Below are positions 16,448 to 55,517 of a stretch of 64,000 bases of DNA, in pieces. Positions within the stretch are counted from its first letter, which is position 1, and each line of letters begins with the position of its first letter. Position numbers and translations under genes: made by a program. Source of the DNA: Clavaria fumosa (taxonomy: Eukaryota; Basidiomycota; Agaricomycetes; Agaricales; Clavariaceae). The DNA is taken from positions 3,762,501-3,826,500 of the forward strand of contig OX637795.1 of the NCBI GenBank assembly GCA_951802425.1, read 5' to 3'. Under the pieces are notes generated by a model. The model was given only the letters and a program-made list of their open reading frames with translations, made no database searches and was not told where the DNA came from.

Positions 16448-17776
16448 TGTCACGTCCGTGCCGCTCCCTTCGGGTCCGGACCGGAAACACCATCTCCGGT
16501 CCCGGACTTCCTATCTCCGGCCTTGACTCTCATCTCCCGCCCCCGACTTCAGATCTCCGGACCTCGACTTCCAATCTCCGGACCCCGACTTCCAATCTCC
16601 GGACCTGACCTCCGATCTCTGGACCCGGACCTCCGAACTCCCGCTCTGGTGCCTCAGCATCTGAGGTTACCTGCCCCACATGTGGGGCAGGCACCAAACC
16701 CACTCCCGGGGATAGTTCCCCAAGAGGCTGTCCTGATCCCGATCCTGATTCCCGATCCCGATCTCCGAATCCCGAACCCGACTTCCCGACTGTTGTGAAC
16801 CGACGTCCGTGGTTACTCCACCAGCAACGAACTCCGAGCGTGGAAACCGGACAATCCACGCAGTTACTTGGCAGCATAGTTACCAACCTGATGGTAGTAG
16901 CGTCTGACTCCGGGATCAGGAAACTGATCCCTGTTGTTATTCCATTGTTCCGTAGTAAGTCCCGCAACATATCTCCAGGACATTCTCCATAGTTACCATC
17001 AATACTCCGGGTTGCTGGAAACGCCCCGGACTTGTAGTATATATACCTACCTACTTCCTAGAGTATTCTGCAGTCCGGATACCACCCTCGTATACCCACG
17101 TACACCCCTCCCGTATACCCCCGAACTCCCCCACACCTCTGTCCCCCCGTCCCTCGTATATCTCCTCACCTCTGTACTCCTGTCCGACTCCCCGTCTCCT
17201 GTCCCTCCGTCTATCTCCGCACCTCCGTCCTTTCCGCCCGCCACCTTGTAATTTGTATCATGTCTAATCCAACCCCTGCCCTCTGCCTCCTATACCAGTT
17301 GTGCTAAGTCCCGACCAACTCCCGACCAACTCCCGACCAACTCCTGACCAACTCCTGACTTCCACCCGACACCCGGAATCTGTCCCGACAGCCCACACCA
17401 TCCATCCAACCTCCGGAAATCATCTGCGAACTCTGGAACTCCGTATCCCTCCTCCTTCCTGGCCTCCGTCTCCTCTACTTAGTCACTCGTTAAACCCGAA
17501 CTCCATCCGAACTCCGTCTCCACCCTCCCATCCGTCCCTCACCTCGAATATGATGAAGTCCATCCTGGACATCTCGCCCGAGCACCGGACCCGAAGTCCC
17601 AAATCCCGTAACTCCGAAATATGGGACACCCAGGACTCAGTAAGGGCGTCGTTTCAATACATTCGCCAAAGTCCCACCCGAACCCCGAAGTCCAACTCCG
17701 GACCTCCGGACCTCCCGGACCCGAAATCCGAACTCCGACCGGACTTCACCCTGACCCTCCGAGCACGCACGTAACA
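16448..17776 (+). repeat. 3' LTR of the LARD-like element
   Basis: Same length (1,329 bp) as the 5' LTR, from tgtcacgtccgtgccgctcc to cacgtaaca. The purine tract ends at 16447. Confidence 0.85.
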
Positions 17777-18861: not shown

Positions 18862-20617
18862 ATGGACGAGTGGCTCACCACGGTCCTAGACTTTGGAGAA
18901 AACGAGTATTGGAGTAGGTACTTTGACACCTGTGTAAGAGCAGAAATCTACCCAGACACCCCTACGGAATCCGATGTCTCGGAGACGGAAACTGCGGTAC
19001 TGAGACCACGAGAGCTACGCCCATTCGAATTGTGGATTATTGAAGAAGAGAGACAACTTGCGCCCTATTTCGCGAGGTTGTATGCACAAGAACAAAGCAG
19101 ACGAGAGGAAAGATTGAGAGAGGCCTTGAGAATAGCACTACCAGACTCCGCGACCTCTGGAACGAGATTGCCTGCACACAGCACCATCGACATTAACCTC
19201 GACGACCTTGAGGACTACATCAACTCCGACAATGACGAGCCAGCAGCAGAACCGACACATGTTTCTGTGGAGATCCAGACAGAACTTAGCCTCCTCGGAA
19301 TCGAGCAATTCGTCGTCCACGAGTACCGACCCCTCGCCTTCATCTGTCGTCCCATCAACCCCATCCCCCCCAGTAGCACCAGTTCCTACTGAGCCCCCCA
19401 TAGACTTCGCGACTTTAGACGAGCGCCTAGTCCGACAAGCACCATCACCACCACCACAGCCACCTGCGACTCCGGAACCGAGACCCCAACCCGCAAGTCC
19501 ATCGCCACCCAAACTCTTGCCGCCGCCCTCGCCCACACCCGAAATGGCAGACATCGCCCCCACAGCCACAATGCCGAGGCTGGACCTAGCCGTCGCACCC
19601 TTTGACAGCAACAAGAAGAACTTCCGGACCTTCCTCAGGTCCCTCCGACTACAGTTCCTGGGAAACCAGGGACTCTACACAAATGACCTCAATAAGATCC
19701 TCTTTGTGTTGAGTAAGATTACAGGAGAAGGGTTTGCTGCAGAATGGGCAAACATGAGAGCTGATGAGATACTGAATGCTGGAGTGGCAGGAACCTGGGA
19801 GGATTTCGTTGTGGACCTGCGGAGGGCCTTCGATGACCCTAACATCACCGCGACGGCCCTGAATGACATCGCGAAGTTGAAACAGGGAGCGCTGGAAGCC
19901 GCAGAATTTTTTGCACTCTTCGAAACCCTAATGCGCAAGGCAGAACTGGACCCAGTCGACGACTCCGACATGCTCATCCACTGGCTGGAATCTAACCTCA
20001 ACTGGAGACTGACCACACAGGTCTACAACGTGAACCTGATGCCAGTCACATATGCCCAGTGGAAGACACTAGTAGAAACGCTGGATGCTCAGCAGAGGAG
20101 GCTCGACGCCATCATCCGTGAACAAAACGCCAGTCGCCCCGCCCCGCCTCAGTTTCAACAGTCACGACCACTCCCAACACCCCCACGCTACCTGAACCCG
20201 AACCCCCCGCAACCCGTACCTCGCTTCCCCTCTGTTCCGCAGCAGCAGCAATGCGCTCCTGCTCCCCAGATCATGCCCCGTCCTGCTGGTGCCGGTGACC
20301 AGATGATTGTGGACCAGACACAAGCCCCTGCGACCGAACATCGATGCTTCCATTGTGGCCAGGTAGGTCACCTTGCTCGGAACTGCCACCTCCCGGACAC
20401 GTGACCATATGTCCCGAGGCCGCAGGTTCGTGCGATGGCCCCTGGCCCAATGGAAGTGGAAGAATACAAGAACGAACTTGCGCTGCTCCACGACAGGCTC
20501 GCGATATACGAGAAAAAAAGGCAGATGGCTGGTGCCCCGCAGGCCCAGCAACAACAACAACAGCAGCTCCCGCCGGCTCCCATCCAGGAGCAGGGTTTTG
20601 GAGAAGAGGCGCAGTGA
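18862..20617 (+). pseudogene. gag: Ty3 gag (capsid, CCHC zinc knuckle)
   Basis: Structural gag protein of the element. An ATG at 18862 opens an acidic N-terminal frame (176 aa, to 19392). The main capsid frame, 19208-20404, is shifted relative to it, so one frameshift or lesion lies between. The main frame has a Ser/Pro-rich stretch, the capsid segment PRLDLAVAPFDSNKKNFRTF, KITGEGFAAEWANM, and the zinc knuckle CFHCGQVGHLARNC near its C terminus. A TGA at 20402-20404 follows, but the same frame is open again to 20617 with a helical, Gln-rich tail. It overlaps pol, which lies in the -1 frame. Confidence 0.85.
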
Positions 20618-23600
20618 GTCCGAACTCGCACCTCTGTAATAGTACGAGCAATGCCCCCACCCCCGCCCCTGTAACCATAGCAAGTATACCCCAATACACA
20701 ATCTTGCAACGGAAACATGCCCGGAGCGTGAACAGACTCGAGGACAAAACCACAATTAAGGTTGTGGAAGAGAAGCCAAAGAGACAGAGAAGAGAGTTGA
20801 CTCTGCCGGCGCACTTTGAGACTCTAACCACGGCTGAATGGGGAGGTGTCAAGGTCCTGATCGATTCAGGGTGTACTAATTGCTTCATGGACCTAGCCTG
20901 GTGCAAGGAACTGGGACTGGAACCTGTCCCACTGCAGAACCTGATCAAAGTGTACAATGTGGATGGATCGGCAAACAAGAGTGGACCCATCCACTACGGC
21001 ATCGACCTCCTGTTAACAATAGGAGACCACCAAGAGTGGATACACTTCTTACTCAGAACGGCCAAGTCACATAAGATCATCTTGGGGCATGACTGGTTGT
21101 CCAAACACAACCCTGAGATCGATTGGCCACTAGGCAAGGTCTCCTTCAAGCGCTGCCCTGCGAGTTGCCACTTTGACCCACACCTCGTGAGTCCTTGGGC
21201 CTACCCTAAAGGCAGTATATGGGACAATGCGCTACAAACGACTATGGATATTCGCTTTTCGGACTCTGGAGATATGCCCGACTGGCCGTCGCTATACCCA
21301 ATGGTCTTTAGTGAAGCGAAGTGGGATGAGTTGCCCAAACCACAACCTGACTTTGACATCAAGATCGAGTTTTGCGAAGACCTGGGCCACTTGTCCTCCA
21401 AACTATACTCACTGACGAGAGAAGAGATGATTGAGATGAACAAGTGGATTGACAAGCAACTCGCATTGGGGAGGATAAGACCTTCCAAGTTGCCCTACGC
21501 CAGTCCATTCTTCTTCAAACGAGAAAAGGACAAACTCCGACCAATCATCGACTACTCGTGACTCAATTCATTTTTAATCAAGGACAAATTCCCGCTGCCT
21601 CGTATCTGTGACTGTGTAGACAGGCTACGTGGAGCCAAGATCTTTTCCAAGATTGACGCAAAGGGAGGATTTCCATCGATGAGGTTGTGGGAAAGACACC
21701 AGGAGAGATGTGCCTTCTTGACATCGCGAGGTTTGTTCGAACCCACAGTAATGTGGTTTGGGCTCCAGAATGCCCCCACGACCTTTCAGAGATTCATGAA
21801 CCATATTTTGAGAGAAGAAATCGCTGGAGGACATGTGCTCGCATATATCGATGATGTCATCATCTTTGCCGACGACCTCGCGACCCACTGCTACTGGATG
21901 GATCAAGTCCTACAGAGGTTCTGCGACAACGGGCTATGTCTTCGATTGAGCAAATGTGAGTTTGAAAAGGCAGAGGTGTTCTACCTTGGGCTCAGACTCT
22001 CACACAATCAGCTCGAACACGACCCGGCCAAGGCAGAGGCAATCCGCAACTGGCCAGAACCCCGAAACATCAAGGAACTCCAGCGTTTCCTGGGAATGGT
22101 CAACCACTTGCGGAGGTTCATCCCCAACCTGTCCTCGCGAGCCAAGCCCCTGTTTAAGCTCACTGGTAACGTTCCCTGGTGCTGGCAGAGCGAACAGGTC
22201 GCGGCTTTCCTGGATGTGAAAGGAGCGCTCGTCTTGGCCCCGGTCCTCGCGCTACCCCAAGACACGGGCAAGTGGAAGGTAGAAACGGATGCGAGCAACC
22301 TCGCGATGGGCGGAGTTCTTTCTCAGCAGCAGCCCGATGGGACCTGGAGACCAGTTGACTACATCTCCGAGGCCCTCACGGCAGCCGAGAGGAACTACGA
22401 CGTTTATGACAAGGAACTCCTCACGGTCATCAGAGCATTAAGAGAGTGGAGAGCATACCTCGTGGGAGTGGATGAAACCTTCGAGATATGGACCGACCAT
22501 GCCAACCTGCAATACTTCAGAAAACCCCAACAACTGAAGCCACGGCAAATACGCTGGTATGGAGAACTCCAGAGTTTCAACTTCGAGATCAAGTACCGGA
22601 CTGGTAAGAGCAACACCAAGGCCGATACCCTCTCGCAAAGACCTGACTATGGAGATGCGGCCGAAGAAGATGCTCCCGTCCAGATGCTCCCCCCCGACAT
22701 GGACGTACGCACCAGCTTCACATCTGAAATGGAGACACTCCCCCAGAAAAAGAGCATGGAACACGTCACGAAACCCGAGGAGATTGACGACAGCTGGACA
22801 TGAGACCGTCTTGGACTGTGGTGGAGAAGCAACACAGTGTGGATACCCCCAACCGTCCGCGAGGTGGTGCTCAATTATGAACACGATCTTCCCATTGCGG
22901 GACACCCTGGAATTGAGAAAATGAAGGCCGCAATGTTCAAAGCCTACTGGTGGCCCAAGATGGTGAGGGATGTAGAGAAGTATGTGTCTGGATGCGAAGG
23001 CTGCCAGAGGACCAAGCCCGACCAAACCAAACGCGCCACACCCCTACACCCACATCCAGTCCCGAACGGCCCATGGTGGGCGATCAGTTGGGACATAGTA
23101 GGCCTGCTACCGCAATCTCGTGGGTTCAACTCCATCCTTGTGATCATTGACAAATTCACCAAGTGCACACTCATCGAAGCAATTGGTTTCAACTTGACGA
23201 GCCTGGGAGCAGCAAGAATCCTCCACAACTGAGTATTCCGGAACCATGGAATCCCCCAGAAGGTCGTCAGCAATCGTGGCCCGCAGTTCGTCTCTCAATT
23301 TATGAAGGAATTCTACCGGATGATTGGAATAAAGGCTAATCTGAGCACTGCCTTCCACCCCCAAACTGATGGACAAACAGAATGGGTGAATCAGGAGATC
23401 GAGACCTACCTGCGGGAATACGTTGACCATCTCCAGGATGATTGGGCGGAGTGGTTAAGCACTGCGGAATTTGTGTTGAACAACCGGGAGCATTCCGCGA
23501 CTGGCTACACGCCCTTCTTCCTGGACTATGGCCAACATCCTTGGAATGGGGGTATACACCCCCAGACAGAAGTGAATCCAGCTGCCGACAAGTGGATGGC

Positions 23601-24162
23601 GAAGTTAGAGGAGTCGCGGCGAGCTGCAAAGGACGCTATGGAAAAGGCTGCTTTAGTGATGAAGAAGAGCTATGACAGCGGGAAGCGACCCAGCTGCGAG
23701 TACGAAAAGGGCAGCCTTGTATGGTTAGACACACATAACCTAAAGATGGACTGCCCAAACAAGAAACTCGACAACAAGCATGCTGGACCCTTCGCTATTG
23801 TAGAGAAAGTGGGGCCAGCTGGATATCGTCTCAAACTGCCCCTGGCCTGGCGAATCCATGACGTGTTTAATGAGGCGCTCCTCACTCCGTTTGTCCCCCC
23901 TTCTTTTGCTTCTCAGGCCCAGCCACCTCCGCCTCCTCCAACCATTGACAATGACCACGTGGAGTATGATGTCAAAGAAATTCTGGATGTGAAGAAAGTG
24001 GGACGGGGAGTGAAGTATTTGGTAAAGTGGCTAGGATATCCTGTTGAGGAAAATACTTGGGAGCCCCGCCAGAACCTCACCAATGTCGCAATTCTCCTCT
24101 GCGACTTTTTCCTCAAACACCTGGACAAGGCGCGACTGGCTGGTCGAGACGCCCAGCCTTGA
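20344..24162 (+). pseudogene. pol: Ty3 pol: protease, RT, RNase H, integrase, chromodomain
   Basis: A single reading frame carries all domains, broken only by TGA at 21559-21561, 22801-22803 and 23230-23232; there is no frameshift. Protease has VLIDSGCTNCFMD. RT starts before the first stop and shows YIDDV after it. RNase H begins KVETDASNLAMGG and ends near TGKSNTKADTLS. Integrase has the first Asp region SWDIVG and the third region with TDGQTEWVNQEIE. The second catalytic position reads SNRGPQF (Asn at 23272-23274) where the family has Asp. A chromodomain (EYDVKEILDV to WLGYPVEENTWEP) ends the protein; in this family it guides integration to chromatin. The frame stops at 24160-24162, 12 bp before the 3' LTR. 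Function is lost in this copy. Confidence 0.92.
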
Positions 24163-27189: not shown

Positions 27190-28428
27190 TCAAACATAGC
27201 CGCAGTGGTGATACCAACCATAAATATCTGAAGCTGAGGTTGAATAAACAGCTTTGAAAAGACACTGATATATCTCCTCGTCCGGCATCTGAGTCATTGC
27301 CATTCGGATGTAGTCTCCTTCTTGGCGGAGATGGTACTTCATATGGGAGAAGGCAAGTTTGATGGGATTGTAGTCAGGGGAGTATGGGGGAAGGAACTCG
27401 CAGCGTATGCCTCTGGAACGTCGATCAGTACATGAAGCGAGCGCAACACCATCTACATACCTTGCCTTGATCAGCTGCTGGATGTTGGGATGTTTATGGA
27501 TGCAGCAGTTGTCCAAGACAATCACAGAATTTGGCACAGGGTAAGGTTGCATGATGTCAAGGAGATTTTCAATAAATCTTGAGAATGCAGCTGTGCAGAA
27601 TGATCCTTCCATGATCTCGCAGTGCAGGACACCATTATCCAAGGAAATGGCAGGGAGCACAGAGAAACTGGAAAGATATTAGCAGTAGTACAACAAATCA
27701 TTATCAGGCTTATCACCAGCCACAGATAAAAAATGCTTTGCATTGTGCTTGGGTTCCTCGAACCGACCAAGCACATCCATGATAGGTTGTCCTGTGATCG
27801 ACCAAGCTCTCATCCACGAAAACTAGCTGATTAGCATCATACTTGCTGATTCTATCAAGGTACTCAAGCCATTTCTCAGCTGAACGTTCTGCTGCTGTCC
27901 GGGTCACCTGCAAGAACCAGCATCAATGATTTAGATCAGTTTCAATTTGTTTACTGACTTTCTTGAGTGTAAAGCCTCCCCTATGAAGCATCCACCACAC
28001 CGTTGAATGCGAGACCATCTGACCACAGGAGACTGCAAGCATCTCTTGAAGCTCGTCTAAGTACAAATCTGGGGTCTGCTTGACTGCTCCTAACAGAAAC
28101 TGGGCAAAGAAGGGTGAGAGAATTGATCAGAAGTTGCCATTCATGTACCTCAACATCCAGATCACGTAGGTATCTGCGCCTCCTCTTGCACTCTTCCTCC
28201 TTATGATCGATGGTTCCATGCACATTGAAGAAGGCAAGTACTCATTCGACAGTGCATTGTGAGGTGCCTGTATACATGGCAATGTCTACAGGTTTGAGCA
28301 AGGAGGAGAGCTGGATGATGGTCCAATGCACAGCGGCAGGGATCTTGCTCCCTCGCACCATGAGAGGCAACATTGAACAGCAAGTTCAACTCCGATACAC
28401 ACCAACTGCTCATGCACTCAACAGTCAA
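27190..28428 (-). pseudogene. Tc1/mariner DDE transposase (DDE_3 type), third acid lost
   Basis: Multi-exon minus-strand gene next to the right terminal repeat. The upstream part (about 28223-27981) is the helical DNA-binding side. At 27913-27713 the first catalytic Asp sits in LVFVDESLVDHRTT. At 27660-27190 the second is in VIVLDNCCIHK. The third block reads PPYSPDYNPIKLAFSHMK, where the family has Glu (NPIE); the codon AAA is at 27358-27360. With Lys there the copy should be catalytically dead, although its ends are intact. Introns separate the blocks, for example a GT...AG near 27715-27665. The call rests on the DDE block order, the PYSPDxNPI motif and the TA duplication. Confidence 0.85.
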
Positions 28429-28618: not shown

Positions 28619-28619
28619 T

Positions 28620-28925
28620 AATTTTGATGATTTGCCGCAAAGTGTACAAGTACATTTCGCTGTATCTTGGCCAAAATAAATTATCCACATACTGTAGATG
28701 CATTTCTATCAATTGAGTAATTAATTTTGATGATCTGCCACTCTCTGAATAGGTGGGTTATGGATGCAATAAATTATGTATGTATGGTAATGGATTTCTA
28801 TCAACTCAGCAACCAATTGTGAAGGTTCACTGCAAAGTGTACAAGTACATTTCGCAGTGTTTTGGCCAAAATAGATCATCTATGTCCTGTAAATGCATCT
28901 CTATCAATTCAGTAATTAATTATAC
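28620..28925 (+). repeat. Flanking repeat modules, right of Tc1-type element
   Basis: Two more copies (28620-28735 and 28795-28925) of the module seen at 17890-18025, with the shared cores caaagtgtacaagtacattt and ggccaaaata. Confidence 0.65.
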
Positions 28926-29474
28926 AGGTTTTCCCTAACATGGTTAGGGCTCAGGTTCCTCTCGGGTTCGGATTTCTAGACCAATTTTATGCATAGTACA
29001 GTCTTTGTGACATGATCTCATGCACTAGCAATGAACCCATTATGTGCAACTATTGTAAACCAGTATCAAGTTTGTAGCAGAGATCTTGTGAATGAGCTTG
29101 CACACAACTGCTCAGCAATGTGCAAGAGTAATAGGACCTTTGCACACAACTGCTGCAGCAGCTCTGTGACTGGAGAAAAATGCATTCTGAGGTGGTACCA
29201 ACCAATTTTGAACTTGGCACCTGGTACCAGGTGCTGACACACATAGTGTTATTACAGTCAATCACCCAGATTCAAATGGATACATGTGAAGACTCGGATC
29301 CAGCAAACCAGCTCTACTCCTCACAATAGGTGAAGAACCATGTATCTGCCTCAAGTTTTGTGTTGGGGATAAGTTTGATCTAGGAAACAAAGGGTGTATA
29401 ATTGGTTAATGATGATGAAGACTGATCTACCTCCGATGCGCTTCGACCTTCCTTTACATAGTATGTTTTGCTGA
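28926..29474. other. Intergenic, no gene seen
   Basis: Between the repeat flank and the last called exon of the micro-exon gene. A short block at 29436-29456 between GT/AG-like sites could be a further small 3' exon of that gene, but this is not firm. Confidence 0.4.
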
Positions 29475-29888
29475 CTAATGTACAAAAGCATGAATAAGCC
29501 AGATCCATGGAGAGAAAAGGATGGAGTATATCCCACCGAAGTCTTGTTCCTTGCTCAACTGTTCCCTCAAATCATGTTCCTTAGTGGGTGAAATAGTGTG
29601 GAAAAGTGTAGCACCACAAGATCCATGAACAACATACCAGCTTTTGCTCCAATTTTTCATGTTCCCCTTTCTGCTGCTCCATGTCCTGTGCATACTTGGC
29701 CTTGAAATAGTGTAGCACTACAGTCAGATTAAGGATCTATGACAACATACCTCCAGCTGCTGCATGTCCCGCTCATACTGGGCCTTGAAAGAGTTAAGAA
29801 ATACAGTCAGATTAAGGATCTATGAACAACGTACCAACTTTTGTTCCAATCCTTTACATTTCTCTTCAATCTGTAGGTCCTGCTTGAC
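29475..29888 (-). other. Four larger coiled-coil exons of the micro-exon gene
   Basis: Exons 29888-29835 (18 codons, VKQDLQIEEKCKG...), 29783-29751 (11 codons), 29700-29638 (21 codons, AKYAQDMEQQ...) and 29579-29475 (34 codons plus TAG). Each has a length divisible by three. Introns between them start gtacgt or gtatgt and end in AAG. Two of them share the motif ccttaatctgactgta, with a CTGAC branch site. The last exon reads EHDLREQLSKEQDFGG and then a hydrophobic tail; an alternative donor at GGTGGG could skip that tail. Confidence 0.7.
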
Positions 29889-32800
29889 CTTGGTTGGGAT
29901 CACGAGAAGAAGCAATTAGCATCAGATTTTGGAAGTGAGAGTAAAAGGTAACAACATACTTGCTGAACATGGAGAGCATATGCAATTAGGTCAGACCACG
30001 AAGTAAATTGTCAATTGAAGAAAGGCATATATTCCAAAGGTGCAGAGCAAGCTCGACTGCGAAAGGGGGACATACATTCTAGCGGTTGAGGATAACGTGT
30101 TCAGGCCATGGTTGCAAATGCAAAGAATGCGATAACATACCGGCTGGAGCTAGAGAGGAACAATAAGGTCACAAATGCAGAGAGCGCCATGTCTACCTAC
30201 ACTCTGGAGTGAAGGGGGAGCACAATGGGTCGGATCACAAAAATGACTGCAAAGAATGGCACAACACACCTTCTGAAAGTGGAGAGCAGGGAAAATGGGT
30301 CCATTGATGAAAGCAAGGGCAAAGGGAGGAACAACATACAGCCTGAAGGTGGAGTGGGCACAATGGGGTCAGATAATTAAAGTAACTGCAAATGGGAGGA
30401 ACGACACACATACTGAAAGAGGGGTGAGATCACGAAGGCAACTGTGAAGGGAGGTATGACATACAGACTGAGAGAGCGCGATGGCATCAAATCACAAAAA
30501 TTAACTGAGAAGAAAAGAACAACACACAGCCTGAAGTTCAGAGCAGGTCAGATCGCCAACAAAAAACAAAAAAAAGGCAAGGGGAGGAACGACGTACAGC
30601 CTGAAGGTGCAGAGCAAGCACGATGGGGTCAGATCACGAAACTAACCGCAATGGGGAGAACGACGCACTCGCTGAAGGTGCAGAGCGAGCGCGATGGCGT
30701 CAGATCATGAAACCAACCGCAACGGGGGGAATGACATACAGCCTGAAGGTGCAGAGCGAGCGTGATGGGGTCACATCACGAAACCAACCGCAACGGGGGG
30801 AATGACGTACATACTGAAGGTGCAGAGCGAGCGCGATGGGGTCAGATCACAAAACCAACTGCAACGGGAGAACGACGTACAGTCTGAAGGTGCAGAGCGA
30901 GCGCGATGGGGTCAGATCATGAAACCAACCGCAACGGGGGGAATGATGTACTTCCTGAAGGTGCAGAGCAAGTGCGACGGGGTCAGATCACAAAACCAAC
31001 TGCAATGGGGGGAATGACGTACAGCCTGAAGGTGCAGAGCGAGCGCGATGGGGTCAGATCACAAAACCAACCACAACGGGGGGAACGACGTACAGCCTGA
31101 AGGTGCAGAGCAAGTGCGACGGGGTCAGATCACAAAACCAACTGCAATGGGGGGAACGACGTACAGCCTGAAGGTGCAGAGCGAGCGCGATGGGGTCAGA
31201 TCACAAAACCAACCGCAACAGGGGGAACGACGTACTTGCTGAACGTGCAGAGCGAGCGCGATGGGGTCAGATCACGAAACCAACTGCAAAGGGGGGAACG
31301 ACGTACAACCTGAAGGTGCACAGCAAGCGCGATGGGGTCAGATCACGAAACGAACTGCAACGGGGGAACGACATACAGCCTGAAGGTGCAGAGCAAGTGC
31401 GATGGGGTCAGATCACGAAACAAACTGCAACAGGGGGAACGACATACAGCCTGAAGGTGCAGAGCAAGTGCGATGGGGTCAGATCACAAAACCAACTGCA
31501 ACGGGGGGAACGACGTACGAGCTGAAGGTGCAGAGCGAGCGCGATGGGGTCAGATCACAAAACCAACCGTAACGGGGGAACGACGTACTTGCTGAAGGTG
31601 CAGAGCGAGCGCGATGGGGTCAGATCACAAAACCAACCGCAACAGGGGGAACGACGTACTTGCTGAACGTGCAGAGCGAGCGCGATGGGGTCAGATCACG
31701 AAACCAACTGCAAAGGGGGGAACGACGTACAACCTGAAGGTGCACAGCAAGCGCGATGGGGTCAGATCACAAAACGAACTGCAACGGGGGAACGACATAC
31801 AGCCTGAAGGTGCGGAGCAAGTGCGATGGGGTCAGATCACGAAACAAACTGCAACAGGGGGAACGACATACAGCCTGAAGGTGCAGAGCAAGTGCGATGG
31901 GGTCAGATCACGAAACCAACCGCAACGGGGGGAATGACGTACTTGCTGAAGGTGCAGAGCAAGTGCGACGGGGTCAGATCACGAAACCAACTGCAATGGG
32001 GGGAATGACATACAGCCTGAAGGTGCAGAGCGAGCGCGATGGGGTCAGATCACGAAACCAGTCGCAAAAGGAGGAACGACGTACTTCCTGGAGGTGCAGA
32101 GCGAGCGCGATGGGGTCAGATCACAAAACCAACCGCAACGGGGGGAACGACGTGCATGCTGAACGTGCAGAGCGAGCGCGATGGGGTCAGATCACGAAAC
32201 GAACTGCAACGGGGGGAACAACATACAGCCTGAAGGTGCAGAGCAAGTGCAATGGGGTCAGATCACGAAACCAACCGCAAAGGGGGGAACGACGTACAGA
32301 CTGAAGGTGCAGAGCAAGCGCGATGGGGTCAGATCACAAAACCAACCGCAAGAGGGGGAATGACGTACATACTGAAGGTGCAGAGCGAGCGCAATGGGGT
32401 CAGATCACGAAACCAACCGCAAGAGGGGGAATGACGTACATACTGAAGGTGCAGAGCGAGCGCAATGGGGTCAGATCACGAAACCAATCGCAAAAGGAGG
32501 AACGACGTACTTCCTGAAGGTGCAGAGCGAGCGCGATGGGGTCAGATCACGAAACCAATCGCAAAAGGAGGAACGACGTACTCGCTGAAGGTGCAGAGTA
32601 AGCATGATGGGGTCAGATCACGAAGCCAACTGCAAAGGGGGGAACGACGTACTCGCTGAAGGTGCACAGCAAGCGCGAGGGGTCAGATCACGAAACAAAC
32701 TGCAACAGGGGGAACGACATACAGCCTGAAGGTGCAGAGCAAGTGCGATGGGGTCAGATCACGAAACCAACCGCAAGAGGGGAATGACGTACATACTGAA

Positions 32801-34493
32801 GGTGCAGAGCGAGCGCAATGGGGTCAGATCACGAAACCAATCGCAAAAGGAGGAACGACGTACTTCCTGAAGGTGCAGAGCGAGCGCGATGGGGTCAGAT
32901 CACGAAACCAACTGCAAAGGGGGGAACGACGTACAACCTGAAGGTGCACAGCAAGCGCGATGGGGTCAGATCACGAAACGAACTGCAACGGGGGAACGAC
33001 ATACAGCCTGAAGGTGCAGAGCAAGTGCGATGGGGTCAGATCACGAAACCAATCGCAAAAGGAGGAACGACGTACTTGCTGAAGGTGCAGAGCAAGCGCG
33101 ATGGGGTCAGATCACGATACCAACCGCAACGGGGGAAATGACGTACTGGCTGAACGTGCAGAGCGAGCGCAATGGGGTTAGATCACAAAACCAACTGCAA
33201 CGGGGGGAACAACGTACGAGCTGAAGGTGCAGAGCGAGCGCGATGGGGTCAGATCACAAAACCAACCGCAACGGGGGAACGACGTACTTGCTGCAGGTGC
33301 AGAGCGAGCGCGATGGGGTCAGATCACAAAACCAACTGCAACGGGGGGAACGACGTACTTCCTGAAGGTGCAGAGCGAGCGCGATGGGGTCAGATCACGA
33401 AACCAACCGCAAAGGGGGGAACAACATACTTGCTGAAGGTGCAGAGCAAGCGCGATGGGGTCAGATCACGAAACGAACTGCAATGGGGGGAACGACATAC
33501 AGCCTGAAGGTGCAGAGCAAGTGCGATGGGGTCAGATCACGAAACCAACCGCAAGAGGGGGAATGACGTACAGCCTGAAGGTGCAGAGCGAGCGCAATGG
33601 GGTCAGATCACAAAACCAACCGCAACGGGGGGAACGACGTACACGCTGAACGTGCGGAGCGAGCGCGATGGGGTCAGATCACGAAACCAATCGCAAAAGG
33701 AGGAATGACGTACTTGCTGAAGGTGCAGAGCGAGCGCGATGGGGTCAGATCACGAAGCCAACTGCAAAGGGGGGAACGACGTACTTGCTGAAGGTGCACA
33801 GCAAGCGTGATGGGGTCAGATCACAAAACCAACTGCAGGGGGGGGAATGACGTACTTGCTGAAGGTGCAGAGCGAGCGCGATGGGGTCAGATCACAAATC
33901 CAACTGTAAAGGAGAGGAACGACGTACTTCCTGAAGGCGTGGAGCAAGCACGATGCGATCAGGTCGGAGCGTCACAGTACAGGAAGGAACAACATACCAA
34001 CTGTAGGAGGAAAGGGGCGCGGTGGGGTGAGACTGTCGACGTGACTATAAAGGAGTAACGTACCCACTGAAGATGGAGAGTGGGCGGAACGGGGTTAGAT
34101 CTCCAACTCGGTTGCAAAAGGAAGAGCAAACATTCTGATAGTGGATATCCAGTGAGATGGTGTAAGATCCTGGGCGCCATGGCGGGGTAGGAGGGGACGT
34201 ACAATCTGACGGTGGATAGCGGGTGCACATAAATGAGATTATGGACGTGACTGTGAGGAACGACATACTATCTGAAGGTGGAGACTCGGTCAGAATGTCA
34301 ACCGAAACGAGAAAGGAAGACCATACCTCCTGAAGCTGGAGAGCAGGTGAGACGATAACGGATAATGGAGTGCGAAAAGCGAGATATTGGATCAGAACAT
34401 GGACCGCATGCAAAGGGAGGAACGCCATACTGCCTGCAGGTGGATGCCAGGTGAGGTAGTGTCAGCACTTCCAAAGCGGGAGCGACAAACCAT
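29475..34493 (-). CDS. Micro-exon gene: 65 single-codon exons plus coiled-coil exons
   Basis: Unrecognised protein of about 149 aa if fully spliced. A TATA box lies ~80 nt upstream; the first exon is just ATG (34491-34493) between CTTCAG and GTTTGT. From there to 29960 the minus strand repeats the pattern AG, three nucleotides, donor. There are 65 such slots, none a stop codon. Introns are 52-113 nt, mostly 68, with a CTNAY branch motif about 25-35 nt before AG in nearly all. All donors are GT except one GC (slot at 32156). Four longer exons follow: 29888-29835 (54 nt), 29783-29751 (33), 29700-29638 (63) and 29579-29475 (105, with stop). They encode heptad-like helices such as AQYERDMQQLE. 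The micro-exon part is 18 Ala, 11 Gln and 7 Glu of 65, with no Gly or Cys, so it would extend the helix. All introns are phase 0. The C terminus is uncertain. Micro-exon splicing is inferred; RNA is the test. Confidence 0.75.
29960..31167 (-). other. Micro-exons 48-65 (array end and divergent 3' block)
   Basis: Slot positions and residues: 31165 A, 31094 A, 31023 A, 30952 E, 30881 T, 30811 Y, 30740 A, 30669 R, 30598 A, 30528 A, 30465 S, 30410 Y, 30340 A, 30270 K, 30201 S, 30141 P, 30076 N, 29960 Q. From 30528 down the introns diverge and shorten (52-67 nt) but keep the signals. The intron between the last two slots is 113 nt and contains a decayed unit (about 30027-30050) whose slot lost its AG and donor. 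Confidence 0.7.
31236..32513 (-). other. Micro-exons 29-47 (71-bp array, part 2)
   Basis: Slot positions and residues: 32511 E, 32440 Y, 32369 Y, 32298 S, 32227 A, 32156 H, 32085 E, 32014 A, 31943 Q, 31872 A, 31801 A, 31731 V, 31660 Q, 31589 Q, 31519 L, 31448 A, 31377 A, 31307 V, 31236 Q. The intron after the His slot has the donor GCACGT, a GC-AG intron if used. A block of six units (about 31190-31613) is a near copy of the next block (31614-32037). Confidence 0.7.
32582..33858 (-). other. Micro-exons 10-28 (71-bp array, part 1)
   Basis: Slot positions and residues: 33856 Q, 33785 Q, 33714 Q, 33643 R, 33572 A, 33501 A, 33430 Q, 33359 E, 33288 Q, 33218 L, 33147 P, 33076 Q, 33005 A, 32935 V, 32864 E, 32793 Y, 32723 A, 32653 R, 32582 R. 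Gln is always CAA and Ala always GCT here. Spacing is 70-71 bp, leaving introns of 67-68 nt. Confidence 0.7.
33928..34493 (-). other. Micro-exons 1-9 (divergent 5' block)
   Basis: Start positions of the 3-nt slots and their codons on the minus strand: 34491 ATG M, 34431 GCA A, 34327 GAG E, 34269 ATA I, 34203 ATT I, 34132 AAT N, 34064 TGG W, 33998 TTG L, 33928 GAA E. The introns here (55-101 nt) are not copies of the 71-bp repeat, yet each keeps GT, a CTGAC/CTGAT/CTCAT/CTTAC/CTAAC/CTCAC branch-like site and AG. This is the best evidence that the pattern is splicing and not a by-product of tandem duplication. Confidence 0.75.
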
Positions 34494-34573
34494 CTGAAGG
34501 TGAAATTCCTTTGCGATGCGTAGCTTCGACAAGGGAGAGACTGCACAGAGATTGAGAAAGGCCGAAACTGAGG

Positions 34574-34579
34574 TTTATA
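34574..34579 (-). promoter_or_regulatory. TATA box of the micro-exon gene
   Basis: Minus strand reads gaatataaacctc, with TATAAA at 34579-34574, about 80 nt upstream of the ATG. A pyrimidine-rich stretch (tttctcaatctctg), a plausible start region, lies between. Position and spacing fit a normal fungal core promoter. Confidence 0.6.
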
Positions 34580-34867
34580 TTCGATCGTTTCGCCGGGTTC
34601 CCACGGCTGCTACATCAGCAAAAGTGCATAGTCTAGGCCTTGTCAGGTGACCTTGGTGATCGGCATTTTATATATCGCAACATGTATCTAAGACAAGTAT
34701 CTAAGACAAAGACGCGGGGGGTACTACTAAGTAACGTGTGATAATTGGGTTCGCAATATTTTGAAGTAGATGGGAGTTTTGGTGCAAGGATTGCCTTTCA
34801 TCCTGACGGAACGATGGGGCGAAAAGGCCCCGGAAAAAGGAGGGGAAGGGATGGGAAAGGGAGGAAT

Positions 34868-36233
34868 TTAAGAAAATACGACAACTCTCGAAGTTGGCGG
34901 GCCGTCATCCTCCAAGTACTCCTCCTCGGTGATGTATTTGTTGTCTGATTCGCGTTCTTCATGGTGCATTTCGATGTCCTGGGTGTTGATGTCGGCTGGG
35001 AGTTTGCCTAGGACTTGACCGACAGCCCTGTCCAAAAACTTTTCCAGACGGGATGCCTCTACTTCTGCGGCACTCGCTCTCGGTGGGTTTTGGGTTGACA
35101 TGGGAATTGGGTCGGATTTGGTTTGGGGGGTAGCGGGAAAGGGGAAGGGGAAGCGGCGGTTGGGGAAGTTTTAAGCTTGCCAGTTTTGCATTTGGTCGTG
35201 TTGGCTCCCGTGGCGGGTGATGTATTAGCGGCGTTTTCTATTTGACGATGAATCTTGAGTGTCCGCCAACCTCGAAGGGGGGACCTATCCCCGAACAAGT
35301 AGACAATCTTGAAGATTCTGAGGATGTTGTGGGCGATTTTTGCATCGGGATCCTCGAAAGCAAACGATATGCTAGACCGAGCGTGTTCTCGGAAAGCTGG
35401 GCTTCTGTGTGATCTTCAGCTCCCTATAAAAAGGATTGTGTGCTAGCAATTCTCTGTGTATTTCGTCCGCGCTGTGGGCTGGGTCTTGCCTGTCCACACG
35501 TTATGTATGATGAGCCCGGACCACTTGACGTCCCGATGGACCAATACGGGATGAGTCGAGAAAGGAGCGATGACTGAAGAAATGGCTGTGGAGGTTGCTG
35601 AGAGTTCTTCGGGCGATACATCTGGGGCAGCAGTGACAACAAGGTTACCCTTTGTGGTGCGGTGCGCAGCCGACAACCGGGCTTTGTGTCCAAGCTTTTC
35701 TAAGCCCTCATTGATCGTCCTGAGGATTTCTGATGGCCGTTGGAGAATGAAGGTGCAGTCCGAAGTGACTTGGATGACAAGACGTGGGCGGACTACTGTT
35801 GTTGGTTTAGGAATGAGTGTTTTGGTGGTTTCGGTTGGTTTGGGAGAGGCCTTGCTGGCTGCAACGGCATAAGAGGGTGCCGGAGCGGATGAGGCTAAGC
35901 GATTCGGGGTAGAGATCTTGGAGTTCAGGCCTTCAAACCCGAGCTGATTTTCTTGAACTCGGCTGACTCAGCGACTGAGGGCTCCTTGACGATTTTTCGG
36001 GATTTTGGAAACAAGACGGCCCAGTGGGCATTGGCAGATGAATCGAACTACTCTGCCAAGCGACGTGAGTAGTCTTCGTCTTTGCTTTTGACCAGAGAGG
36101 CCAATATTGGCGACGCGCCCATGAACAGCGCGAGGAGTTGGTTATGCATTGTTTCGAGTTCGTTAGACGACTCAACGTATGAGATCATTATAGTACGAGG
36201 TCTGGGGACCCCTGGGGGATTCGCTCTGTCCAT
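34868..36233 (-). pseudogene. Non-LTR retrotransposon (LINE) ORF1 remnant
   Basis: Minus-strand frames in order. 36233-36048 is an N-terminal segment ending SRRLAE, followed by a TAG. 35872-35424 contains GLEKLGHKARLSAAHRT, TKGNLVVTAAPDVS and VKWSGLIIHNVWTG, a pattern I recognise from fungal LINE ORF1 proteins. Then come LAHNPFYRELKITQKPSFPR and DPDAKIAHN in shifted frames, and 35101-34868 with MSTQNPPRASAAEVEASRLE. Stops and frameshifts break it. No endonuclease or RT part is visible nearby. Family call is moderate. Confidence 0.5.
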
Positions 36234-36340
36234 ACTATAATGTAGTTCGAGGTGTTAAATGATAAGTTATAGGTGTGGAGAGTTGACTCTTTGTCGAGAC
36301 GGTGGTGGTTGCTGATTAACCCGTGCCGACACGCGGCCGC

Positions 36341-36882
36341 CAACACAGCGCTGCTCAACATAATCGAGCTCGTGCTGCAGGCCGAGTACCTGTACGGCGC
36401 GATGGCCGGCCGTGCCGCTCCTCGGGTTCACAGTCGCGGCGCTGACGCTGTGGAAGACGCTGGTGTACATGCTGCAGGAGGCGTTCTGCGGGGGTTGCGT
36501 GGTCAGGCAGAACGATCTGGCGCGGCTTGTGGTGTACTGGGTGGTCCCGAATGGGTGAGTTGATGCCGCCATTTTTCTCTCTCTTTCTTTTCTTGTTTTT
36601 TGTTTGGGGTTTTGGGTCCGGGGTGTGGGTGTGGCTGATGTTGGTGCTTGACTTGCGGTGAAGGTGCTGGATCGTGGTCCCCTCGATAGTCATCTGGACG
36701 CTTGGGTAGGACCTCGTCCAGCTGCTGCACGTCGCGCAGGGGAAGATGGATAAAAGAAAGACGACATGAGCGTGTCTGATCTACCAGCCGTGTTGTCGAA
36801 TGTTTTTTGTTTTTGCTTTGTGGTCTTTGTGGCCTCTCGTCGTTTATGCATCCTGTTGCTTGGTTGGTTCCGAAACGGACTT
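36341..36882 (+). pseudogene. Truncated copy of the membrane-protein gene at 38785-39625
   Basis: Matches exons 4-5, the intron between them and the 3' flank of the intact gene (cagcgctgctcaacataatc onwards). The final exon has LG followed by TAG where the intact gene has LGKDL, and the upstream exons are absent. The intron is retained, so it arose by DNA duplication and not retroposition. Confidence 0.8.
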
Positions 36883-37778
36883 GCGTGATTCTATCGCGGG
36901 TCCGCGACGGCGGGGCTGGAGCCGTCTCACCCACGCGTTGGCGAGGCACGAAAGGCAGCTGTTTCGTCCCGCCGGCTGTGCAGAAGAAGCGCGGTTAGAC
37001 GGAGAGCCGTTCTGCACCGTGGCTGGGTGGGCACCCGACGGGCGAACCAGCGGGACGGGCAGACGCAGAAGTGGGGCCGTCCGAGTCTTAACTGCCGAGT
37101 CCGGGCCCGGAATCGGCGGGCTTCATTGACCGCCGCCGCCGCCGAGGCGAGATGGCTGGCTGCGTTGTTGTGCTCCTGCCAGTTATCGCTGGTCAGCCGT
37201 TCCGTAGATGCACATTGGCTTGCTCGTGGTGACGCATGGTGCCTGTGACATGTGACCTGGTCCGCAACTGGTTTGCCTTCCTATACATGCCATCTTCACG
37301 GGATTCTCAAGCCTCCTTTAGTGCCACTGTCAAAATGTCCCTTTGTAAAGATATCGCAACCGTTGCTCAATCTGCCTGACCAAGCTGCCGACGGAAGGCA
37401 GTCTTTGCGCTCACCTGTTTGATGCCGCGTCATTGGGGTGGCGTCAGGTGAATCGAAGAGGTCCGAATGGCCATCGAAATGGGCCTTGTTGAACTTGGTT
37501 ATGAATGATCCACAACTGATAATGGTTTCTTTCGTGCGTATATCACTAGACAGTTCGGCCATCGAGCGAATGATGACAGAAACTGAGAAAGAACAGAATG
37601 TGCTTCCTGTCACCTGGCGTATTTACGCCAAACCTTGTTGCCCTCTCTCTATACTATACGTTGTCTCGTCAGGTGACTCCGACCACTCTCTCATTCCCCG
37701 CGGCACAGATTTGATGAATCGAAATGACGTTTATCTATCCGACCTTCGTGACGTCATACTATATTTAGGCTTTTCAAT

Positions 37779-38344
37779 TTGGTGCCTTTGGACCCGGAGA
37801 ACCTGAAGCGGTTCAAGATCCCCACTGACGATGTACCAGAACTCTCCATCCTTCACGCTTGTCGGTTTATCCTGGCCCCACCAGACACACCTTCGGACAG
37901 TCCCAATGCTGCTCGAATCTTTGATGTTATGCAATTTTTAGCCACGCACCCCAACGCATCTGGATGAGCAAGGTCAAGGATTCCGCTGTCACCCGTCTAT
38001 CCTGATTTCAAAGAGAAGAGATACTGGCGGCTTCCGATAAAATGGGCGTCATCTTGGCTTTGTTCATGCACCGGGTTTTACTACTGCCAGATGTCCATCG
38101 TGAAGAAATTCGACTGACGCGCCTCATCCATGCCTTTCTGTCTCTTAGAGATGAAGATATTGGTCCCTCCATTACTCCCGGCGGTCCGGACGGCAGCGAG
38201 AGCAATGTTGGCAGGAAGCGAGGCTCTGCGTCTGACGATGACTTTGATGCTGACTCCAAGAGGCGGCGATTACGGAGCGCAATAAACGGAGTCAAAACCA
38301 AACGGCTGGTCAAAAAGGCTCCACTGGCCGAGACACAATTGTAA
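37779..38344 (+). CDS. Hypothetical protein, exons only partly resolved
   Basis: Two open stretches look coding but I do not recognise them. 37779-37967 has VPLDPENLKRFKIPTDDVPE and no ATG, so an upstream exon is likely. 38042-38344 starts MGVILALFMHRVLLLPDVHR and ends with a bipartite basic stretch (SKRRRLRSAINGVKTKR), suggesting nuclear localisation. About 75 nt between them could be an intron. Whether they form one gene is a guess. Confidence 0.35.
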
Positions 38345-38784
38345 CTGAAAACAAACTTTTTGCCAGCGAATCCAAAACCAAACTGGTAAATCTCAATCCT
38401 TCCTTCCTTGATGATGGCTCCTTCAGACCGCATAAGCCGACCCATGGACAGCGAAAGTGGTAAGTCTTATACTTGTGTAATCTGCTCTTCTATCTTTTTT
38501 AACCAAACAGGTCTTTCCAAACAGTCTTGCGGCTGGGACCAGAACAAAGTCACAATGTTGGATGTTTGACCCTTCACTTTCGACGAAATAAATCGTGTTT
38601 GCCGCACTGTAATACTGTAATCACATTGTTGTAATCTTGTGCCTTTGTATTGGAACATACACTGCATTCTGGCTTGAGAATGAGTAAGTGTGACCTTGTG
38701 ACCATTTGCTGATTGACATCAAGCAACGCCGCCACTGCTACCGTTGCATCACCACCATCCCACCACCGTCCCTCACTCGTCCTC

Positions 38785-44926: not shown

Positions 44927-44990
44927 AGAGACAGATTTAGTCAATGTGACTTGAAATAATACAATTGGGTTTCCTGATCAATAATCTCAC

Positions 44991-47900
44991 CTGTTTGTAG
45001 TGCCAGATACTTGTGGCCTGCATATCACATAGGCAGCCTCAGCAGCCTCCTCTTCATAGCTCATTCCTGGGTCTGACACAAACTCTGCTGTGCAATCTAT
45101 GGCTGGAGTGACAGCCATGGCTTCTGGGTTGATAGGCACAGTCTGTGTGACTGAGGTATCCAGATCTTCACCCTCACTTTTGGAATCAACAAGCTTATTT
45201 CCAGCTGAAGGTTGAGATGAATGGTTCCATGTGGCATTCAAATAGGAATACAGAGCAGTGAACCTGAGGACAACTATGTGTCCCTGAGAAGTGATCACTG
45301 CCACAGCATCAGTGATGGAGTCACACATTTTCTGATAAGCCACAGGAAGCCAGCAAAGTCTGTGTTGCATGAGAGCAGTGGATAGCCATCCATTTTCAAT
45401 GATATATGGCCATGATTGTCCACAATTTGAATCATTGTGAATGCTGTGAAGAGCACCAGTGACTGCATCCCACAGCCTCACAGTCTGGTCCCAAGACCCT
45501 GAAACTATCCTTGTGCCATCTGGAGAGAATGACACTGACATGATAAAAGAAGAATGGCCCCTGAGTGTTTGTAAATGAGTACCAGTGACTGCATCCCACA
45601 GTCTCACAGTCTTGTCCCAGGACCCTGAGACTATCCTTGTGCCATCTGGGGAGAATGACACTGATCTGACTGAATCAGAATGGCCCTTGAGTGTTTGTAA
45701 ATGAGCCCCAGTGACTGCATCCCACAGTCTTACAGTCATGTCTTTAGAACCTGACACTATCATTGTACCTTCTGGAGAGAATGACACTGATGTGACAGAT
45801 TTAGAATGGCCCTTGAGTGTTTGTAAATGAGCCCCAGTGACTGCATACCACAGTCTCACAGTCTGGTCCTGAGACCCTGAGACTATCCTTATGCCATCGG
45901 GAGAGAATGACACTGATGTGACATGATTAGAATGGCCCTTGAGTGTTTGTAAATGAGCCCCAGTGACTGCATCCCACAGTCTCACAGTCTGGTCCTGAGA
46001 CCCTGAGACTATCCTTGTGCCATCTGGAGAGAATGACACTGATATGATATGATTAGAATGGCCCTTGAGTGTTTGTAAATGAGCACCAGCAGCTGCATCC
46101 CACAGTCTCACAGTCTTATCAGCAGACCCTGAGACTATCTTGGTGCCATCTGGAGAGAATGACACTGATTCAACCCAATTAGAATGGCCCCTGAATGTTT
46201 GTAAATGGGCACCAGTGACTGCATCCCACATTCTCACAGTCTCATCAACAGACCCTGAGACTATCCTTCTGCCATCTGGGGAGAATAATACTGATTTAAC
46301 ATGATCAGAATGGGACTTGGGTGGTTGTATAAGAGCACCAGTGACTGCATCCCACAGTCTCACAGTCTTGTCCTGAGACCCTGAGACTATCCTTGTGCCA
46401 TCTGGAGAGAATGACACTGACAAGACAAAGGAAGAATGGTCATTGAGTATTTGTAAACAAGCACCAGTGACTGCATCCCACAGTCTCACAGTCTTGTCCC
46501 AGGACCCTGAGACTATCCTTGTGCCATCTGGGGAGAATGACACTGATTCAACCCAATCAGAATGGCCCCTGAGTGTTTGTAAATGAGCTCCAGTGACTGC
46601 ATCCCACAGTCTCACAGTGTAGTCCTTGGACCCTGAGACTATCCTTGTGCCATCTGGAGAGAATGACACTGATGTAACATAATCAGAATGGCCCTTGAGT
46701 GTTTGTAAATGAGCACCAGTGACTGCATCCCACAGTCTCACAGTCTTGTCATCAGACCCTGAGACTATCCTTGTGCCATCTGGGGAGAATGACACTGATT
46801 TGACCCAATCAAAATGGCCCTTGAGTGTCTGTAAATGAGCACCAGTGACTGCATCCCACAGTCTCACAGTCTCATCCCGAGACCCTGAGACTATCCTTGT
46901 GCCATCTGGAGAGAATGACACTGATGTGACATGATTAGAATGGCCCTTGAGTGTTTGTAGATGAGCATCAGTGACTGTATCACAATGTTTCACAATCTGT
47001 TCATCAGACCCAGAGACTATTCTTGTGCCAGTGACTGCATCCCACAGTCTCACAGTCTGGTCCTCAGACCCTGAGACTATCCTTGTGCCATCTGGAGAGA
47101 ATGACACTGATCTGACCCCAGAATGGCCCTTGAGTGTTTGTAAACAAGCACCAGTGACTGCATCCCACAGTCTCACAGTCTGATCTTGAGACCCTGAGGC
47201 TATCCTTTTGCCATCTGGAGAGAATGACACTGATTTGACTTGATTAGAATGGCCCTGGAGTATTTGTAAATGAGCACCAGTGACTGCACCCCACAATCTC
47301 ACAGTCATGTCATTAGACCCTGAGACTATCATTGTACCTTTTGGAGAGAATGACACTGATGTGACAGATTTAGAATGGCCCTTGAGTGTTTTTAAATGAG
47401 CACCAGTGACTGCATCCCACAGTCTCCCAGTCTGATCCTCAGACCCTGAGACTATCCTTGTGCAATCTGGGGAGAATGACACTGATGTGACATGGTTAGA
47501 ATGGCCCTTGAGTGTTTGTAAATGAGCACCAGTGACTGCATCCCACAGTCTCACAGTCATGTCATTAGACCCTGAGACTATCCTTGTACCATCTGGAGAG
47601 AATGACACTGACGTGATTGTGTCAGAATGGCCCTTGAGTGTTTGCAAATGAGCACCAGTGACTGCATCCCAAAGTCTCACAGTCCCACCATCAGACCCTG
47701 AGACTATCCTTGTGCCATCTAGAGAGAATGACACTGATATGATTGGGCCAGAATGGCCCTTGAGTGTTTGTAAATGAGCACCAGTGACTGCATCCCACAG
47801 TCTCACAGTCTTGTCATCAGACCCTGAGACTATCCTTGTGCCATCTGCAGAAAATGACATTGATGTCACTCCACCAGAATACCCCATGACCCATACACAT

Positions 47901-53780: not shown

Positions 53781-54272
53781 ATCTCACACTTCACGCCTCA
53801 TGGGGCAGAGGAAAGAGAAGGGGTTGTAAATTATCATTAATAAATAGAGGGTGACTGAGTCTGAGTTCTGGGGGAGTAAGGCGGTCAACCAGAAGGGTGT
53901 GACCTCCTAACTGGGTTGTGCCGGGGCGGGGGAGCCCCTGCAGACTCAATCGAGGGAGAGGAGGGAGGGTACAAAAACTGAGGAGGAAGCTACGAAGGGT
54001 TCTACAATATGGAGATGGAGGTGGTAGAGGGAAAGAGGCGCCGGGATGTTCGGAGTTACAAATCCGGCTTGGTTTGAGATGTCGATCTCGAGCTCGTTCC
54101 GGGCTGAGATCGGTCATCTCACACTTCACGCCTCATGGGGCAGAGGAAAGAGAAGGGGTTGTAAATTATCATTAATAAATAGAGGGTGACTGAGTCTGAG
54201 TTCTGGGGGAGTAAGGCGGTCAACCAGAAGGGTGTGACCTCCTAACTGGGTTGTGCCGGGGCGGGGGAGCCC
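53781..54272 (-). repeat. Ngaro 3' repeats B1-A2-B2
   Basis: B (from atctcacacttcacgcc to gggcgggggagcccc) occurs twice around A (tacaaaaactgaggaggaag to ggtcatct). About 30 bp of unrelated sequence separates A2 and B2. The common atct at the joints is the likely crossover site. Confidence 0.9.
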
Positions 54273-55279: not shown

Positions 55280-55517
55280 GGAAAAACTTAAGACAGAAAC
55301 GCAGAAAGTTTTGCGGTTGTCAGCCTCAGCTGCCTGCTCGAGGCTCCTGAATTATAATCAAGAGAAGGATGCAGACGAGTGAGGGTACACTGAAGGAAGA
55401 TATACATCCAATGGGAGTCCAGGCCTTAGCTCAACATGGAGACTAACTACGAGTCCAGGCCTTAGCTCGACATGGAGACTAACTACGAAGACAGGTTGAA
55501 AACACGACAGGGCATCA

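Follow-up and report, generated by a model that had tools for sequence, protein, structure and literature searches.

A duplicated basidiomycete locus with a putative run of 65 or 80 consecutive one-codon exons

Codon-sized exons have been described in fungi before. According to excerpts of PMC4986451, PMC3689799, and PMC10197012, the NACHT-ANK (nank) genes of Tuber melanosporum (Iotti et al. 2012) contain tens of codon-sized 3-bp microexons. An earlier note on the DNA studied here had regarded its run of one-codon exons as having no precedent, a view that these reports contradict. The abstract of a 2024 paper states that no functional microexons had been described earlier in filamentous fungi, though Iotti et al. 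appear among its references (PMC11121469), and this statement weakens the Tuber precedent. For schistosome micro-exon genes, excerpts of PMC10526429 give exons of 6 to 81 bp (3 to 81 bp in its abstract), mostly of 15 bp and 10 to 20 in number, separated by introns of 0.1 to 5 kb. The aphid bicycle and megacycle genes, as excerpted from PMC9168663, encode insect effectors and have phase-2 internal exons; a megacycle gene spreads about 2000 amino acids over more than 100 microexons, so that its exons must be far longer than 3 nt. In Arabidopsis a 1-nt exon (APC11) is reported, and the excerpted text cites stepwise removal around a 9-nt exon (PMC4674806), which together support one-by-one intron removal in principle. 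Fungal NLR proteins have WD, ANK, and TPR repeats described in part of PMC4986451 as showing high internal conservation, concerted evolution, and few hypervariable positions. A paper on basidiomycete P450 genes (PMC1184071) uses the word microexon, and the open-licence PMC literature that we searched reports no array like the present one in a basidiomycete.

The window, by which we mean the whole 64-kb stretch of DNA that was analyzed, carries on its minus strand, from 34493 down to 29962, 65 consecutive 3-nt slots between an acceptor AG and a donor GT. This locus, called copy A, has the following features:

34574..34580, minus strand: TATA-like box about 85 nt upstream of the first slot, from the sequence
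34491..34493, minus strand: first slot, ATG, directly followed by a GTTTGT donor, from the sequence
33998..34493, minus strand: 5′ outer units 1 to 8 (M A E I I N W L) with introns of 55 to 101 nt, not copies of the array repeat
30598..33930, minus strand: homogenised array, units 9 to 56, with a period of ~71 nt (68-nt intron plus one codon)
29960..30530, minus strand: 3′ outer units 57 to 65 (A S Y A K S P N Q) with introns of 52 to 113 nt and a decayed unit within intron 64
29835..29888, minus strand: predicted first ordinary exon, 54 nt, VKQDLQIEEKCKGLEQKL, in phase with the slots, read by eye
29751..29783, minus strand: predicted coiled-coil-like exon, 33 nt, read by eye
29638..29700, minus strand: predicted coiled-coil-like exon, 63 nt, read by eye
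29475..29579, minus strand: predicted last exon, 105 nt, with the hydrophobic C-terminal stretch GGIYSILFSPWIWLIHAFVH and the stop codon TAG at 29475, read by eye

The slots are those AG-NNN-G(T/C) sites that were kept by a filter on donor shape (hexamer). The looser list of AG-NNN-G(T/C) sites is longer and includes shadow matches inside introns, e.g., AAG-TAC-GTCGTT and CAG-TTG-GTTTCG. As neighbouring array units are 69 to 74 nt apart throughout, the filter skipped no unit. Our recount returned the run of 65 reported in the earlier note, with the correction that unit 34 has a GC donor, the sole non-GT donor among the 65. Its other counts were also reproduced: the first slot is ATG, the slot residues include 18 Ala, 11 Gln, and 7 Glu with neither Gly nor a stop, and the introns measure 52 to 113 nt, with 68 nt in 39 of the 64 between-slot introns. 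The slot string reads MAEIINWLEQQQRAAQEQLPQAVEYARREYYSAHEAQAAVQQLAAVQAAAETYARAASYAKSPNQ. The predicted spliced slot codons begin ATGGCAGAG, and full inclusion would amount to 195 nt in copy A and 240 nt in the paralogous copy B described below. Likewise, the slots join ordinary coiled-coil-like exons of 54, 33, 63, and 105 nt in the same phase up to the stop codon, giving a predicted spliced frame of 149 amino acids in which 65 one-codon exons precede a coiled-coil-like part and a hydrophobic stretch at the C-terminus. The statement that the outer units keep exactly 3 nt holds for the donor-filtered slots, except that unit 63 can alternatively be read as a 9-nt exon, AG-CTCCAGCCG-GT. We consider it probable, at roughly 0.64, that the locus is a genuine fungal gene, present in duplicate, and that 65 (in copy B 80) consecutive 3-nt exons encode its predicted N-terminal helix.

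The pattern was then sought elsewhere. Outside the array, neither strand of the 64-kb window contains a pair of [CT]AG-slot-GTRNGT sites spaced 45 to 120 nt, at any slot length from 0 to 9. Inside the copy A array, 59 strict sites are present on the minus strand and chains were formed only at slot length 3; other slot lengths formed none and were rejected. Across the 48.8-Mb genome, a strict pattern requiring TCAG-NNN-GTAYGT twice at 45 to 75 nt gave 93 matches, all on one strand and in two places of contig C2 (54 + 39), and the reversed control gave 0 matches. DNA similarity searches found the array unit at the same two loci only; the genome-wide scope is that of the strict pattern and of similarity, which one-codon arrays or paralogues of different sequence would escape. 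A dispersed repeat or introner was rejected since these searches found the unit at two loci only. Coding on the plus strand was rejected as well: the 71-nt period shifts the frame and places one stop in every third unit, so that stop-to-stop frames of about 70 amino acids recur there.

The second locus, copy B, is a paralogue 142 kb from copy A in the same orientation, with 80 slots:

C2:3654680 down to 3649077: copy B slots, with the predicted first ordinary exon from 3649003
Window 28619..38541 versus C2:3647721-3660400: segmental duplication carrying the gene, in pieces of 90 to 96% identity

The boundary given for the duplication is the end of the partner sequence that was compared, and the block may be longer. 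In both copies together, all 145 slots are 3 nt long and none is a stop or Gly. A 601-bp stretch containing the leader and the 5′ outer units is 99% identical between the copies, with 0/60 substitutions in the 5′ leader and 2/563 in the 5′ outer units, of which all eight slots are identical. The adjoining upstream flank differs by 2.0% substitutions over 1367 aligned bases, the 3′ outer units by 14/708 (2.0%) with one differing slot (GCT versus GTT), and the 3′ flank by 2.0% over 917 aligned bases. The block of ordinary exons shows 35/334 substitutions (10.5%), a value from an alignment that runs partly across different repeats, exon repeats having been gained or lost. The 33-nt coiled-coil-like exon of copy A corresponds to 54 nt in copy B, seven codons more and in frame, and the last exon of copy B lacks one base, which displaces the stop downstream.

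Between the arrays, the order of the units is largely scrambled. An alignment of units based on introns only scored 20, compared to a mean of 6.3 and a best score of 15 for 50 shuffled orders; among its 38 pairs, 12 had the slot in common (32%, versus 19% in shuffled orders), most plainly at the array edges. The 80-residue slot string of copy B resembles that of copy A chiefly at the ends. The mean intron difference between units was 7.1 within copy A, 6.8 within copy B, and 7.4 between A and B. Three histories would account for this: turnover in the arrays that far outpaced change in the flanks, differences between the arrays that already existed when the duplication took place, or a subsequent evening-out of the flanks. 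Whichever applies, the 145 slots have all kept their 3 nt and carry no stop. The scrambled arrays could therefore predate the duplication instead of being fast-changing, which counts against our preferred reading.

The introns were searched for a CTNAY branch motif roughly 10 to 60 nt before the acceptor, with base-shuffled introns as control. The motif was found in 105 of the 109 array introns of both copies (35.8 in shuffled introns) and in all eight 5′ outer introns of copy A (3.6 in shuffled), which upholds the earlier description of the motif as near-universal. In the 3′ outer introns of each copy it was present in only 6 of 10 (4.5 to 4.6 in shuffled), so that the description fails there, and this small excess counts against the one-codon-exon reading. 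With the looser motif YTNAY, no AG lies between branch and acceptor in any of the 106 array introns having the motif (35 expected, in an array that is homogenised), and an extra AG in this interval occurs in 2/8 of the 5′ and 1/8 of the 3′ outer introns (2.5 and ~2 expected).

The signals at the slots bear on an alternative, which we regard as unlikely, namely that the gene is real and the array is one composite intron, with the ATG exon or a few outer slots joined to the downstream exons and most units skipped. The near-identical donors and acceptors across the array introns would make long-range pairing possible, and because the frame survives any skip, skipped units could persist harmlessly. 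One decayed unit is in fact already present within the 113-nt intron 64 (29963-30075, minus strand), around 30035 in copy A and also in copy B; its acceptor is GG in copy A and AG in copy B, and the GT donor is absent from both. If the slots were unread, however, one would expect their positions 1 and 2 to be about as variable as an ordinary intron column, and the donors and acceptors deep within the array to have degenerated; neither is observed.

This is evident from a column analysis of 109 homogenised units of both copies (A9-55 and B9-70). The donor base G1, the branch bases T41 and A43 of the CTGAC motif, and the acceptor bases A70 and G71 never vary in these units. At T2 the only two changes are to C; they produce GC donors, a type that spliceosomes accept. 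Over all units, the entropy of the three slot columns was 1.55, 1.74, and 1.11; intron column 20 had a value of 1.57, as variable as the slots, which counts against our preferred reading, and the next intron column had 0.99. Among close pairs (2343 of 5671 pairs, with at most 6 differences in the 71 flanking columns), the slot bases rank 1, 2, and 3 in variability among the 74 columns.

The slots form two lineages, ending in A (51) or in T/C (58). The non-modal shares at codon positions 1, 2, and 3 were 0.41, 0.36, and 0.03 for T/C-ending slots and 0.28, 0.26, and 0.00 for A-ending slots, whereas the intron mutation spectrum, which includes constrained columns, predicts 0.07, 0.05, and 0.03. 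Codon positions 1 and 2 thus vary about four to eight times more than predicted, and position 3 does not. Within a lineage, slot positions 1 and 2 rank second (T/C) or fourth (A) against the 71 intron columns; the 1 to 3 intron columns that exceed them count against the preferred reading. In 161 unit pairs with at most 2 flank differences, all 38 single-base slot differences change the residue, and about one-fifth would be expected to be synonymous; the units are related and recombining, so that these events and counts are not independent. A small number of founder codons may lie behind the codon composition. Rapid non-synonymous change combined with slow change at third positions, within an array of introns, fits a protein-coding reading and not an unread satellite. 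As a pattern, homogenised repeats with hypervariable, putatively coding positions correspond to the repeat arrays of fungal recognition genes that undergo concerted evolution.

The same data speak to two further explanations. It appears improbable that the array is a minisatellite in a dead gene, in which an intron plus one codon was tandemly duplicated and is conserved merely because the copies are young. The homogenised array is a tandem repeat of ~48 copies with 88% match, it lies near transposon remnants, and the stop of copy B is displaced, all as such an origin would have it. Yet the diverged outer units, with introns of 52 to 113 nt, still keep 3 nt, the splice-critical bases are among the 15 of 71 intron columns that are invariant, and the slots are the least conserved bases among close unit pairs. 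Less probable still is an introner-like origin, in which near-identical introns invaded an older, uninterrupted coding sequence at its codon boundaries. How much the slots of two units differ hardly depends on the divergence of their introns once the flanks differ at all, as if the codons were older. However, introner-like elements spread over many genes and the unit was found in these two arrays only, an insertion at every codon boundary is implausible beside tandem duplication, and in 16 of 19 pairs of units whose flanks are identical the slot is the same too.

Elements of various kinds surround the locus. Tc1/IS630-like transposase fragments (DDE_3 and HTH) lie at 27190-28126 of the window, minus strand, immediately outside the duplicated block. 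Gag-, reverse-transcriptase-, integrase-, and chromodomain-like frames at 19136-24162, plus strand, resemble a Gypsy-type retrotransposon, and recombinase-like and reverse-transcriptase-like frames at 54242-57881, minus strand, suggest a tyrosine-recombinase retroelement, both judged by eye, the former from the ORF list. Two closely alike frames with 21-bp repeats, ~6 kb apart at 10539-11066 and 16530-17057, are by eye probably a repeated element.

At the protein level, the earlier note had set the lack of stop codons against about three expected. No stop is present, but the column-shuffled expectation is nearer two, 1.99 for copy A (P = 0.14) and 1.76 for copy B (P = 0.17), and intron mutation rates predict 2.46 stops in 109 units. 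Multiplying the probabilities of the two copies gives ~0.02, yet the copies are not independent. The absence of stops alone is weak evidence. Compared to column-shuffled codons, the 111 array slots contain 0 Gly versus 5.4 and 2 Pro versus 17.3, and their mean helix propensity is 1.185 versus 1.03 expected, excesses that are inflated by the shared descent of GCT and CAA codons. A hydropathy period of 3.5 was supported for the whole slot string (p = 0.0005 in copy A, 0.02 in copy B), for the arrays alone in copy A (p = 0.03; 0.28 in copy B), and by 18-residue windows in copy A (p = 0.002; 0.35 in copy B); 32 whole-sequence period tests were run, and periods other than 3.5 were not significant. 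The non-significant values of copy B, for its array alone and by windows, count against the preferred reading.

A Pfam scan of both predicted proteins gave no family over the cut-off, the best being Spectrin with 15.6 bits versus a cut-off of 29.9. Two protein-database searches returned no related protein, which counts against the preferred reading, although a mis-annotated homologue would be missed. As a control, the NACHT neighbour used as query returned agaricomycete proteins (e.g., from Jaapia and Galerina) from the same database. This neighbour lies 10 kb from the array gene at 44987-49783 of the window, minus strand, where a NACHT NLR frame has beside it a frame with a long array of highly alike 42-amino acid WD40-like repeats. 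Matches to NACHT or ANK at E ≤ 0.01 were absent from the 10 neighbouring ORFs scanned out of longer ORF lists. In the genome there are at least 150 NPHP3_N matches (150 of 185 candidates scored), an ankyrin search returned loci L072 to L086, and an open frame of ~1996 codons at C2:831217-836334 is dense in ankyrin-repeat matches.

Taken together, the rearranged copy B, the invariant splice and branch bases, and the hypervariable codon positions 1 and 2 support the reading as a gene with one-codon exons that the earlier note had put forward, even if its argument from missing stops is weak. The splicing of 3-bp microexons reported from Tuber also speaks for it. From the sequence we infer that the codons enter the mRNA. 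Between each 3-nt exon and its successor, a short, self-contained intron of ~68 nt would be spliced out. Such introns, each with its own donor, branch, and acceptor, suit intron definition and would be recognised singly, the order of removal would never put two spliceosomes on one 3-nt exon, which is unlikely to accommodate both at the same time, and with every splicing event the upstream exon would lengthen by one codon. That 65 such events should all succeed in each mRNA looks costly, which counts against this reading. Each slot being a complete codon, the frame stays open whichever slots are skipped; mistakes in splicing would be tolerated, and many different forms of the helix could result. 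Unequal exchange of intron-codon units would lengthen and shorten the array, with selection keeping or diversifying the codons, and the product would be an α-helical, coiled-coil protein. Our preferred guess, drawn from fungal repeat arrays that evolve in concert, is a role in recognition or self-assembly. More tentatively than the gene structure itself, and with considerable doubt, the locus could be viewed as a combinatorial generator of helix lengths and surfaces in which introns are homogenised and codons diversified, i.e., a device that diversifies recognition without being built as an NLR.

If the slots are read, the gene would have one of the most extreme exon-intron structures known to us, with one helix residue per exon, and dozens of successive splicing events would have to work around 3-nt exons. 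In a single fungal gene one could then test directly how small exons in series can be, in which order introns are removed, and how splicing errors relate to protein diversity. The range of codon-sized microexons would widen from the NLR genes of truffles to a gene of another phylum in which no NLR domain is recognised. With no homologue among predicted proteins, the locus suggests a class of genes that ordinary annotation would miss.

Codon-sized exons being known already, what is new, as far as the open-licence PMC literature searched shows, is a run of 65 and one of 80 in a probable basidiomycete gene with no recognised NACHT domain. The present locus shares with the Tuber nank genes, as the excerpts describe them, a fungal host, tens of 3-bp exons per gene (here as gene structure alone), and a proposed diversification by splicing. 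It differs from that expanded NACHT-ANK family of an ascomycete in being from a basidiomycete, in the two loci found, in the N-terminal position of the run of 65 or 80, and in that neither the predicted proteins nor the ten tested ORFs nearby matched NACHT or ANK. Schistosome micro-exon genes likewise have tiny serial exons, mostly multiples of three in length so that in-frame skipping is possible (PMC10526429, in part), whereas the slots described here are all 3 nt long and their introns of ~68 nt (52 to 113) are tandemly homogenised. The aphid bicycle genes similarly have many small internal exons of one phase, with fast protein evolution reported in the excerpts (PMC9168663), but of phase 2, in contrast to the phase 0 single codons of the present array. 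In fungal NLR repeats the repeat itself is coding, whereas 68 of the 71 bases of the present unit are intron. Single exons of 1 or 3 nt, such as that of Arabidopsis APC11, indicate that spliceosomes manage exons of such size; in the cases excerpted there are one or two of them per gene, and here dozens would follow one another in series.
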